A stretch of DNA of 34,679 nt. It comes from an uncultured Lachnospiraceae bacterium. Its GTDB lineage: Bacteria; Bacillota; Clostridia; Lachnospirales; Lachnospiraceae. Location of the stretch: the NCBI GenBank assembly GCA_947564735.1, contig CANOEC010000041.1, positions 1 to 34,679 on the forward strand, written 5' to 3'. Positions 10,806 through 34,679 of this stretch are shown here, piece by piece. Every line of letters starts with the position of its first letter. Position 1 is the stretch's first letter. Below the pieces are notes generated by a model, which was given only the letters and a program-made list of their open reading frames with translations, did not search any database and had not been told where the DNA came from. The translations under genes and the position numbers were made by a program.

Positions 10806-12158
10806 ATGAAGAATTATGACATTGTAATCATCGGCGGAGGTCCGGCGGGTCTTGCCGCCGCCGTTTCCGCGAGACAAAGCGGAATAGACAGTATTTTGAT
10901 TTTGGAGAGAGATAAGGAACTGGGGGGTATTTTAAACCAGTGCATCCATAACGGGTTCGGGCTCCATACCTTCAAGGAAGAACTGACGGGACCGGAGTAT
11001 GCGCAGCGTTTTATTGTGCAGGCGAAGGAGCTGGATATTGAATACAGGTTAAACACGATGGTGCTGGAAGTCGGTGCAGATAAAGTCGTGACGGCGATGA
11101 ATCGGGAAGATGGCTTATTTTTGATTCAGGCGAAGGCGGTCATTCTGGCGATGGGATGCAGGGAGAGACCAAGAGGCGCCTTAAACATTCCCGGATACAG
11201 ACCGGCAGGTATTTATTCCGCTGGTACAGCACAGCGGCTGGTCAATATGGATGGCTATATGCCCGGCAGGGAAGTGGTTATTCTCGGTTCCGGCGATATC
11301 GGACTGATTATGGCGAGAAGAATGACGTTAGAGGGCGCCAAGGTAAAGGTTGTGGCGGAACTGATGCCTTATTCGGGAGGACTTAAGAGAAATATCGTAC
11401 AGTGTCTGGACGACTACGGCATTCCTTTGAAGCTGAGTCATACAGTGGTAGACATTAAGGGAAAAGAGCGTGTGGAGGGCGTGACGCTTGCGCAGGTGGA
11501 CGAGAAGAACAAACCAATTCCGGGAACGGAAGAATACTATGCCTGTGATACGCTCCTGCTTTCGGTAGGTCTGATTCCGGAGAATGAAATATCCCGCGGT
11601 ATGGGTGTTGTGATGAATCCGGTCACCTCCGGACCGAGAGTCAACGAGAGTCTTGAGACGAATCTGGAAGGCGTGTTTGCCTGCGGTAATGTGCTCCATG
11701 TTCATGATCTGGTGGATTTCGTGTCGGAGGAAGCGGCAGCGGCAGGCAGAAATGCGGCGGCTTATGTGAAGTCCGGAAAGGACGGTGCATCAGATGCGAA
11801 GACGCCGGTCGTTGCTGCCAAAAATGCGGTGGATAAAGATACGAGGGAAGAGATGGCGCAGCAGGATACAGGCGCCGGTTCTGAACAAGAAATCGAGCTG
11901 GTTGCGACGGGCGGCGTCAGATATACGGTTCCATGTACAATCCGCACTTCTCATATGGAAGATGAGCTGAAAGTGCGTTTCCGTGTCGGCAGTGTGTATC
12001 AGAACTGCTTTGTCAGCGTTTACTTCGATGACGAGAGAGTGATTCATAGGAAAAAGATGGTTTTTGCGCCGGCGGAGATGGAGGAAGTGAAACTGACAAA
12101 AGAGCAGATTTTACGGTATCCGGAGCTTCGGAGGATTACGTTCCGGATTGAGGAATAA
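10806..12158 (+). CDS. FAD/NAD-dependent oxidoreductase, partner of the GlpA-like enzyme
   Basis: A 450-residue pyridine nucleotide-disulfide oxidoreductase-type flavoprotein. FAD site: DIVIIGGGPAGLAAAVSARQSG at the N-terminus; NAD site: VVILGSGDIGLIMARR near residue 160; ATG-type motif VFACGNVLHVHDLVDFV, where FAD is bound again. After residue 330 there is an Ala/Asp-rich low-complexity linker (KDGASDAKTPVVAAKNAVDK) and a beta-rich tail that I do not recognise and that may pack against the DUF1667 protein. The ATG at 10806 follows GAGGT; longer in-frame extensions overlap the previous gene. In the glycerol operon it most likely accepts electrons from the GlpA-like subunit and reduces NAD(P) or another carrier. 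Confidence 0.88.
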   Translation: MKNYDIVIIGGGPAGLAAAVSARQSGIDSILILERDKELGGILNQCIHNGFGLHTFKEELTGPEYAQRFIVQAKELDIEYRLNTMVLEVGADKVVTAMNREDGLFLIQAKAVILAMGCRERPRGALNIPGYRPAGIYSAGTAQRLVNMDGYMPGREVVILGSGDIGLIMARRMTLEGAKVKVVAELMPYSGGLKRNIVQCLDDYGIPLKLSHTVVDIKGKERVEGVTLAQVDEKNKPIPGTEEYYACDTLLLSVGLIPENEISRGMGVVMNPVTSGPRVNESLETNLEGVFACGNVLHVHDLVDFVSEEAAAAGRNAAAYVKSGKDGASDAKTPVVAAKNAVDKDTREEMAQQDTGAGSEQEIELVATGGVRYTVPCTIRTSHMEDELKVRFRVGSVYQNCFVSVYFDDERVIHRKKMVFAPAEMEEVKLTKEQILRYPELRRITFRIEE

Positions 12159-12163
12159 ACGAT

Positions 12164-12231
12164 GTGTAGAAATATCCGCAGGTAAAGTAGAAATGCGGGT
12201 TATGCGCAAAAAGCGTACGCAGAAATGAGGA
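12164..12231 (+). promoter_or_regulatory. Repeated leader-like element, copy A
   Basis: GTGTAGAA (12164-12171) is followed by a 7-bp hairpin (ATCCGCA 12174-12180 with TGCGGGT 12194-12200, one G-T pair). Next is a 30-base block (12202-12231) with a small hairpin TGCGC-AAAAA-GCGTA and then CGCAGAAATGAGGA, whose GAGG is the ribosome binding site of the DUF1667 gene. A second copy lies at 34293-34364. Copy A sits inside the glycerol operon, between two genes. Confidence 0.6.
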
Positions 12232-12236
12232 TAAAG

Positions 12237-12599
12237 ATGGAAACAAGAAATTTAACGTGTATCAACTGCCCTATGGGGTGTGCACTTACGATTGAGATGG
12301 AAAATGGTGAAGTAACCAGCGTGAGCGGTAATACCTGCCCACGGGGAGATGCTTACGGGCGCAAGGAAGTCACGAATCCAACCAGAATCGTAACTTCGAC
12401 CGTAAGGGTAAAAGACGGTGAGGCGGACATGGTGTCTGTCAAGACTGCGCAGGACATTCCGAAAGGGAAAATTTTTGACTGTGTCAGGGCGCTTAAAGGT
12501 GTGGAGGTGCAGGCGCCAATCCATATCGGGGATGTGATTATCTCCAATGTGGCGGGTACAGGCGTAGATATTGTTGCCACTAGGAATGTGGAGAGATAA
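12237..12599 (+). CDS. DUF1667 family Cys-rich protein
   Basis: A 120-residue protein with a putative metal or Fe-S site formed by CINCPMGC near residue 8 and CPRGDAYG near residue 30 (CxxCxxxC plus a fourth Cys), matching DUF1667 and resembling the N-terminal Fe-S segment of molybdopterin enzymes. The rest is a beta-rich domain with VTNPTRIVTSTVRV and IPKGKIFDCVRAL. In Thermotoga and Clostridia this family is the third gene of the glycerol-3-phosphate oxidation module, where it is thought to be an electron-transfer subunit. I start at the ATG at 12237, six bases after GAGG; the ATG at 12225 lies inside that ribosome binding site. The site itself is part of a repeated leader-like element. Confidence 0.9.
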   Translation: METRNLTCINCPMGCALTIEMENGEVTSVSGNTCPRGDAYGRKEVTNPTRIVTSTVRVKDGEADMVSVKTAQDIPKGKIFDCVRALKGVEVQAPIHIGDVIISNVAGTGVDIVATRNVER

Positions 12600-34085: not shown

Positions 34086-34292
34086 AGTCGTTTTCCTTAT
34101 ATATGGATTATATCATATCATGCAACAGTCTGGCACGCAATGTCATTTGATAAATCCGGATGCATTGTGACAGTTCAGCCTTCCATGCTGGTAAAACTAT
34201 GATATGGCGTCCGATATGAGGAACAATGTTTCCTAGACAAAATCCTATCATATATGCTAGTATTGTGAATATGTGGGATACTGATGTATGAC

Positions 34293-34364
34293 GTGTAGAA
34301 GTTTGTGTCTGTGTTCACTTGACACAAACTTGTGATACGCGAAAAGCGTGCGCAGAAATGAGGA
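34293..34364 (+). promoter_or_regulatory. Repeated leader-like element, copy B
   Basis: GTGTAGAA (34293-34300), a perfect 11-bp hairpin (AAGTTTGTGTC 34299-34309 with GACACAAACTT 34321-34331), and then a block (34335-34364) 27/30 identical to 12202-12231. The block holds the small hairpin TACGC-GAAAA-GCGTG and CGCAGAAATGAGGA with the ribosome binding site of the next gene. Compared with copy A, the first hairpin has an unrelated sequence but the same place. Confidence 0.65.
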
Positions 34365-34370
34365 ATTAAT

Positions 34371-34679
34371 ATGAGTCACGATAACGGTAATTTAGCTATG
34401 GGGCATGAGCGGACAAACATGTCTGACGCAGAGGGTAGGCAGATAGCTAAAAAGAGACCAGTTGATGAAGAAAATACGATGAACAGGAAGAAACTCTCAG
34501 ACGAGGATGAACAGGGGGCAAAAAAGAAGCCGGTCAGCACAAAAAAACCGGCGGTGAAGAAGCCGGCGGAGGGAGAAAATCCGGCGGCGAAGAGGAAGCC
34601 GGCAGAGGCAGGAAAAACAGCGGCAAAGAAGAAAGCGGCAGAAGAAGAGAATCCGGCGGCGAAGAGGAAACCGGCGGAG
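34371..34679 (+). CDS. Lys/Ala/Pro-rich protein (3' partial)
   Basis: An open frame from the ATG at 34371 to the window end, 103 codons without a stop. GAGG lies seven bases upstream, within the repeated leader element. The start (MSHDNGNLAMGHERTNMSDAE) is polar. From residue 28 the composition becomes histone-tail-like, with repeated blocks such as ENPAAKRKPAE and KKPAVKKPAEG separated by acidic residues. Codon use in the repeats is biased to CCGGCG and AAG. This could be the disordered cytoplasmic N-terminus of a larger membrane or envelope protein, or a small nucleic-acid-binding protein like bacterial H1-type proteins; the downstream part is needed to decide. I recognise no family. Confidence 0.7.
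   Translation, partial: MSHDNGNLAMGHERTNMSDAEGRQIAKKRPVDEENTMNRKKLSDEDEQGAKKKPVSTKKPAVKKPAEGENPAAKRKPAEAGKTAAKKKAAEEENPAAKRKPAE

Follow-up and report, generated by a model that had tools for sequence, protein, structure and literature searches.

What is the leader-like sequence that stands twice, each time shortly before a start codon, in a 34,679-nucleotide contig (CANOEC010000041.1) of an uncultured Lachnospiraceae bacterium? This contig (C41, bases 1-34679), referred to here as the window, belongs to a genome assembly of 4.52 Mb in 102 contigs (G000; G-numbers denote genomes and L-numbers individual loci in the comparison sets). An earlier note, made from the sequence of the window, had offered two readings of the repeated leader, a cis-regulatory RNA or a mobile repeat bringing along a signal for translation start. 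Our results strongly favour mobility: the feature is very probably a non-autonomous mobile element of about 90-120 bp, similar to a miniature inverted-repeat transposable element (MITE), which occurs in Lachnospiraceae and is specialised for the gap between the Shine-Dalgarno (SD) sequence and the start codon. Among the observations that speak for the mobile repeat are orthologous sites that are either empty or filled and an SD sequence borne by the element itself.

The upstream regions of orthologues were read for three genes in a set of 78 genomes of the genus. The first gene, which encodes an ACT-domain protein, is present in 30 of the 78 genomes; five of these are filled (G064, G061, G031, G032 and G077), and 25 have no recognisable copy. 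The empty allele reads GAGAGGAGATAAACTATG in G003, G015 and G025, and the filled allele in G064 and G061 consists of GAGAGGAGATAA, the element (GATTG...GGAG) and AAAACTATG, so that the element lies between the native SD sequence and the ATG. The second gene, potD, is found in 64 of the 78 genomes, and among the 30 loci read one is filled (G064), the empty allele being TATGGAGGCAATTATG in G003; at one of the potD loci (L277) only 37 nt of upstream sequence are available, and in 10 rows, where the alignment began after residue 1, the start was extrapolated. Further traces of movement are found within single loci and genomes. Near-identical copies precede unrelated genes in G064, a newer copy sits directly behind the SD sequence of an older copy's right end at two nested loci (L490 and L510), and at L144 a newer copy stands about 25 nt downstream of the end of a complete older one. 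At the ACT-domain gene, different species carry differing sub-variants of the element (L126, L148, L169 and L207), which suggests that a single start codon has received or exchanged an element more than once.

The third gene, which encodes a DUF1667 protein and is served by one of the two window copies (copy 2), illustrates what becomes of an insertion with time. It gave 30 matches in 29 of the 78 genomes. No element is recognisable in 19 of the 30, most of which have a short gap and several of which have the native SD sequence gaggagg inside the end of the upstream gene; ten, including the gene in the window, keep GAAATGAGG at the right distance; and the remaining one (G077) has a separate degenerate copy with remnants of the hairpins P0 and P1 described below. 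In nine aligned orthologues GAAATGAGG is the only stretch of the leader that is kept at length, so that conservation does not extend to the first hairpin of copy 2, and the SD sequence of the element has taken over. The most worn of these leaders presumably descend from one insertion. Copy 2 is an old relic.

The junctions bear on the target. Named genomes supplied 81 distinct copies; a left end can be recognised in 64 of them, a right end in 72 and both in 59. When a right end and at least 200 nt of downstream sequence are present, 67 of 71 copies run straight into an open reading frame (ORF) of at least 50 amino acids, and the spacing between SD sequence and ATG in this set is 6 nt in 48 copies and 5 nt in nine. 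Both ends and sufficient flanking sequence are available for 58 copies. In these, A occupies the two positions preceding GATTG in 57 and 55 copies, respectively, and the third and fourth positions behind the right end in 55 and 56, with the start codon usually two bases later. AA thus flanks the element on both sides in nearly all 58 copies, and the empty site has one AA; the background frequency of AA at -4 and -3 is 59 of 359 (16%) among the other starts of the same loci. An SD-like core is located at most 16 nt upstream of the element in 50 of the 58 copies. Three of the four copies that do not precede an ORF still have AA-NN-ATG, a hint that the ATG belongs to the target itself, although four cases are few and these may be the starts of lost genes.

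Intact copies are about 90-120 nt long, and the distance from GATTG to the start codon is mostly 97-119 nt (144 copies). On the mRNA strand, the order from 5' to 3' is P0, GCGAGA, P1, CTCG, a variable segment, a pre-SD strand, the SD sequence, usually 6 nt, and the start codon. The left end carries P0, a palindromic hairpin that many relatives have as GATTGAAAAT..ATTTTCAATC and copies of the window's own lineage as GTGTGAAAAAT..ATTTTTCACAC; a hairpin of this type was detected in 64 of 103 copies. P1 consists of TTTGTGTC, a loop of mostly 11-12 nt and G(A/C)CACAAA. The variable segment is often ATGCGCAAAAAG and can contain extra small hairpins, for example GACTCAATAAATTGAGTC or ATCCATTTTATGGAT; the pre-SD strand is GTGCGC or GCAGCGC, and the SD sequence AGAAATGAGG or AGAAATGGAG. 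A TTG after the native SD sequence, considered as the start of an N-terminal extension or leader peptide, was rejected, since its frame agrees with that of the start codon in 60 of 144 copies and is, in addition, open in only 24 of 144. Shortened copies at L301 (CTCGTTTATGCGCAGAAATGGAG) and L319 (CTCGTTATGCGCAGAAATGAGG) fit deletion between two internal GCGCAGAAA repeats. At L009:497 (+), G000:C1:238846-238872, a hairpin of the P1 type whose 14-bp stem is perfect (ACGAGATTTGTGTC..GACACAAATCTCGT) has no SD sequence or start codon directly behind it, which suggests a relic or another use of the hairpin.

A covariance-model search revealed a large, dispersed family, to which the two window copies belong. 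The model (R1) was built from 14 copies, 13 of the window's own genome, copy 1 of the window included, and one of G002, and contains the pairs of the P1 stem only, so that other pairings can be tested without bias. In the own genome it found 44 matches at E<=0.01 (single-genome search), or 43 with stricter filters, and at least one match was obtained in 60 of the 78 genomes of the genus and in 31 of the 40 more complete ones, the own genome included. Within the family, 29 of 298 sampled genomes match at E<=0.001, drawn from 28 of 280 genera. The spread over Lachnospiraceae is patchy, and the relative G374, likewise an uncultured Lachnospiraceae bacterium, has 90 matches. The exact core occurs in at least 80 named loci of Lachnospiraceae, and the matches listed include one of Acetatifactor, two of Roseburia and two labelled only as Clostridia or bacterium. 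Simple pattern counts in the own genome agree with this abundance: the 14-mer GCGCAGAAATGAGG has 19 exact sites, 17 of which are followed 2-15 nt later by an ORF of at least 40 amino acids, and allowing up to two mismatches gives 93 sites versus 17 for a reversed-pattern control, far above chance. Hairpins of the P1 type with at most one mismatch number 17 in the same genome. The listed family copies terminate in GAAATGAGG or a close variant, a motif that the searches themselves used.

Carriage by phages or plasmids was considered and rejected. A search of 72,556 plasmid records gave no match, and one exact element pattern had none among viral contigs. Eighteen faecal records labelled 'Bacteriophage sp.' do match; in two of three retrieved from this set, both from human faeces (L516 and L518; MT836618 and MT836374), the element is accompanied by ORFs that resemble bacterial chromosome genes, those of L516 being named by reading only as polA, coaE, nagA, nagB and ptsI. 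On account of these ORFs the two records are taken as probably bacterial DNA inside a virome set.

What moves the element? It is short, present in high copy number, mobile and without coding capacity, as MITEs are, but terminal inverted repeats are not seen when both ends are read: the left end GATTGAAAATT... and the right end ...GCAGAAATGGAG are not reverse complements, and the inverted repeat P0 lies wholly within the left end. The absence of such repeats and the left-end hairpin would fit a remnant of a hairpin-bearing single-strand transposon, similar to repetitive extragenic palindromic (REP) elements or to insertion sequences (IS) of the IS200/IS605 type, whose Y1 (HUH) transposase would cut after AA. 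The left flank and the right end both finish in AA, as cutting after AA at both ends would leave them, and the own genome has two adjacent pieces of Y1_Tnp (PF01797), a domain present in 31 of the 78 genomes. However, PF01797 was not found in six copy-rich genomes (G064, G031, G032, G009, G013 and G044, with 18-31 element matches each), which are draft assemblies that may miss genes, and G023 has 16 Y1_Tnp matches versus eight elements. As the presence of the domain does not track copy number across the 78 genomes, the Y1 transposase was rejected as the mover. Nor was a transposase, or any other coding sequence, found between such ends in the 30 loci read out of 101 left-end matches (10 genomes). 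In these loci the right end follows within about 80 nt, except at L317, where the contig ends, and it is diverged and still visible at L302, L304 and L306. Nor was extra coding sequence seen in nine of the 81 named copies, those that lack a close right end. Under relaxed matching, a right end turns up no more than 84 nt away in seven of these; the stretch of L385 is truncated, and for L421 the roughly 100 nt available contain none. We give this single-strand transposon origin a low probability. The 16 matches in G023 themselves appear to be a burst of an IS200/IS605-like element.

The second question is whether the element acts as RNA. The P1 loop is complementary to the strand immediately 5' of the SD sequence, and the two change together: GCGCAC occurs with GTGCGC, GCGTTGC with GCAGCGC, GCGCAT with ATGCGC, GCACAC with GTGTGC and, at L365, GCGCAGC with GCTGCGC. 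This covariation was tested by permuting the loops among copies 2000 times and comparing the duplex energies of own and permuted pairs. A first set comprised 104 copies, of which 103 were used (parsing failed for L123); their 77 distinct combinations have an own mean of -10.22 and a permuted mean of -8.35 kcal/mol, and none of the 2000 permutations was as low. With 135 distinct combinations from 248 copies, copies with less than 9 nt between P1 and the SD sequence having been dropped, the values are -8.5 and -6.21 kcal/mol (0/2000, z -11.7), and the result holds for 11-nt loops (8/2000), 12-nt loops (0/2000) and other loops (0/2000) separately. Individual positions agree with this. At loop position 6, G-C is replaced by A-T in seven of 32 combinations with 11-nt loops; at positions 8 and 9, A-T becomes T-A and C-G becomes G-C between the two loop lengths; and in a fixed register standard pairs fill 318 of 384 cells in 64 combinations. 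Such repeated double changes of differing kinds are hard to explain except by a maintained loop pairing, although weak pairing (-2 to -4 kcal/mol) is seen in several distinct combinations, that of copy 1 (-3.7) included. A loop that pairs with a downstream strand through compensatory changes is characteristic of an H-type pseudoknot, which is predicted here provided that P1 and the loop pairing form together.

Other pairings behave differently. In the test set that they share, the loop and the pre-SD strand give z -7.8, the loop and the SD sequence, as a control, z +0.9, and the loop and the 5' strand of the second hairpin z -2.6 (7/2000). The second hairpin (P2), which the earlier note had regarded as conserved, does not covary (own -5.81 and permuted -5.74 kcal/mol, z -0.6, 535/2000). 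An RNA-type structure is kept across the family, but what covaries in it are the base pairs between the P1 loop and the pre-SD strand and not the second hairpin. The P1 arms change in step in some copies (TTTGTACC/GGTACAAA, TTTGCGGC/GCCGCAAA and TTTGTGAC/GTCACAAA), and a mismatched type, TTTGTGTC/GCCACAAA, is found in 24 of 103 copies, with other mismatched types occurring as well. Permutation values for P0 and P1 are biased because the arms were picked by their pairing, a bias from which the loop tests are free. RNAalifold on the mixed alignment returned five pairs with a covariation term of 0, which we think is explained by the mix of variants and the crossing pairing. Rfam gave no match at gathering level for the whole window and, at E<=0.5, nothing on the element in five relatives; the region 34200-34420 at E<=5 yielded four microRNA matches only, three of them over the P1 region, all with scores far below gathering and taken as chance. 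A sub-threshold match to Clostridiales-1 RNA (38.6 bits versus a gathering score of 48, E 1.4e-5) lies downstream of an element copy at L189:1590-1703 (+).

The two copies of the window can now be placed within this family. Both lie where the earlier note had put them, and they share GTGTAGAA. Copy 1, together with the start codon that it serves (34288..34373, forward strand, as are all features here), matches R1 with 82.2 bits, a score to be read knowing that this copy was one of those used to build the model, and it is partly decayed, P0 being unrecognisable by eye and the loop pairing weak. P1 (34302..34328) consists of TTTGTGTC (34302-34309), an 11-nt loop (34310-34320) and GACACAAA (34321-34328), and the strand GTGCGC (34348..34353) is the partner of the P1 loop in intact relatives; in copy 1 this pairing is degraded because the loop reads TGTGTTCAC. 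The SD sequence GAAATGAGG borne by the element occupies 34355..34363, and the start codon 34371..34373 opens a gene for a Lys/Ala/Pro-rich product that is cut by the contig end. Copy 2, an old degenerate insertion (12159..12236, with a provisional left boundary), is located between the upstream gene (stop 12156-12158) and the DUF1667 gene; R1 matches it at 12180-12239 with an E-value of 7.1e-6. The captured SD sequence GAAATGAGG lies at 12222..12230, and the DUF1667 gene (PF07892, 129.7 bits) at 12237..12599, with a start set by the orthologues, downstream of the in-frame ATG at 12225 where the mechanical ORF begins.

The plan that had been drawn from these two copies has to be modified accordingly. 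The first hairpins exist as described in the minimum-energy folds, with 11 bp in copy 1 (34299-34309/34321-34331) and 7 bp in copy 2, but the idea of one variable hairpin is not supported: the first is P1, conserved in intact copies, whereas copy 2 has lost P1, and its own 7-bp hairpin is not common to the eight orthologues aligned with it. The second hairpin appears around 34336-34350 in the fold of copy 1 but is absent from that of copy 2. Likewise, the 30-base block (34335-34364 and 12202-12231) has the 27 identities counted before, but it ends 6 nt (34364) and 5 nt (12231) short of the ATG and not at the start codon.

Base-level comparison shows the following course at two genes, and the junctions of the 58 copies are consistent with it. 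The element inserts at an AA dinucleotide, in sense orientation, between the native SD sequence of a gene and its start codon, after which the SD sequence in its right end adjoins that start codon. On the sense strand the P1 loop can pair with the strand before the SD sequence, as the covariation shows, P0 usually being present at the left end. Most likely this fold holds the new ribosome-binding site accessible whatever sequence lies upstream, or is a recognition signal for transposition, or does both. Genes could keep working after insertion, because the element would bring its own folded RNA and ribosome-binding site; with the translation signal restored, insertion at start codons would be tolerable and copies would pile up there. 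Over time the native SD sequence and the hairpins decay until little but the SD sequence of the element is kept, as at 12.2 kb.

Could the conserved fold instead be a regulatory device? A bolder proposal, to which we give a low probability, is a mobile translation module that seeks start codons, with a target (AA, two bases, ATG) that is read directly by the mobility system and a conserved pseudoknot that is a switch sensed by a shared factor. If that were true, each insertion would put another gene under the same post-transcriptional control, and tens of unrelated genes, with up to about 90 copies in one genome, would form one fast-evolving regulon. A vertically inherited cis-regulatory RNA, riboswitch-like or protein-binding, which controls a regulon through access to the SD sequence, is less probable still. 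On the one hand, the strong covariation of loop and pre-SD strand is what such a leader would show, a pairing of CTCGTT with AATGAG that hides the SD sequence appears in the minimum-energy folds of L019 and L033, and P1 and the loop pairing are retained in six genomes at one orthologous gene. On the other hand, the hiding pairing does not covary (own -2.1, permuted -2.24, z +1.4), for which reason sequestration of the SD sequence by CTCGTT was rejected; nested copies and the empty sites at orthologous genes are at odds with vertical inheritance; and the old copy kept its SD sequence and lost its structure. The downstream genes are also unrelated: Pfam assigned ten of them (eight of the own genome and two of G064) to DUF1667, penicillinase-repressor type, YgbB/IspF, AraC type, MatE, SecE, NifU_N (IscU-like), ABC transporter, ACT and solute-binding protein families. 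Unrelated genes, empty sites and decay of structure in the old copy together argue against one native regulon. Finally, it is very improbable that no transposition system is involved and that the leaders spread through gene conversion among repeats: the same gene does occur with and without a hairpin module in the segment from P1 to the SD sequence (L126 and L148 versus L169 and L207), but new copies adjoin unrelated upstream sequence, and conversion could not start where filled and empty alleles share no element sequence, as in the two base-level comparisons.

Several points nevertheless weigh against a mobile element of the kind proposed. The empty and filled alleles were compared at base resolution at two genes only, where G064 and, at one of the two, G061 supplied the filled copies, and of the two window copies it is copy 2 whose orthologous sites were compared. 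The AA-flanked pattern would be given equally by a 2-bp target duplication and by AA as part of an element end. The left-end matches that were read, a part of the total, revealed neither an autonomous partner nor an enzyme. The copies are akin, and the permutation counts are accordingly not strict probabilities. The one vertically kept copy with P1 and the loop pairing in six genomes may point to a retained function, and later use of single copies as regulators is therefore possible.

With a mobile element as the preferred explanation, the niche itself deserves attention: it comprises the few bases between SD sequence and start codon, and it could be occupied because the element brings a replacement ribosome-binding site. 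This would offer a concrete route by which the translation starts of ordinary genes, such as secE, an iscU-like gene or the DUF1667 gene, are replaced in evolution, and orthologous pairs from before and after insertion are available for testing it. An enzyme that finds the gaps before start codons would be of interest in its own right, and the modules of the element could serve as insulated ribosome-binding sites.

No description of this element was found in the literature searched, a search that left outside most subscription papers and all bioRxiv preprints, and the comparison with known systems is therefore one of partial likenesses. REP elements with their REP-associated tyrosine transposases (RAYT), and IS200/IS605 elements, bear hairpins and have no terminal inverted repeats. 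The present element resembles them in both respects and in AA junctions that are compatible with strand-specific cutting, but differs in that the Y1 domain does not track copy number and in the insertion at start codons with a replacement SD sequence. The dinucleotide core of IS110/IS1111 elements would fit AA. RNA-guided insertion of the IS110/IS1111 type, as presented in the part of the source covered (PMC11187229), shares a specific target site with our element, for which no search for a DEDD transposase or a guide was made. The TAACTGA repeats of marine Beggiatoaceae are similarly dispersed, close before numerous start codons, for the most part in sense orientation and with no evident functional theme among the genes, but, according to the passages covered (PMC4679880), they are direct heptamer repeats that hardly resemble an SD sequence, and about 10% of the regions have one; the word pseudoknot does not occur in that text, unlike the case made here, and empty and filled sites do not appear in those passages. 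The pneumococcal BOX, RUP and SPRITE repeats, in the sections of their description that were available (PMC3049150), are short (typically <200 bp), dispersed, structured and mobile, and probably non-autonomous, SPRITE being enriched near the 3' ends of genes. BOX is modular, as is the segment from P1 to the SD sequence here; what sets our element apart from all three, as far as those sections describe them, is its place in the gap between SD sequence and start codon, the SD sequence of its own and the covarying pairing between loop and pre-SD strand.
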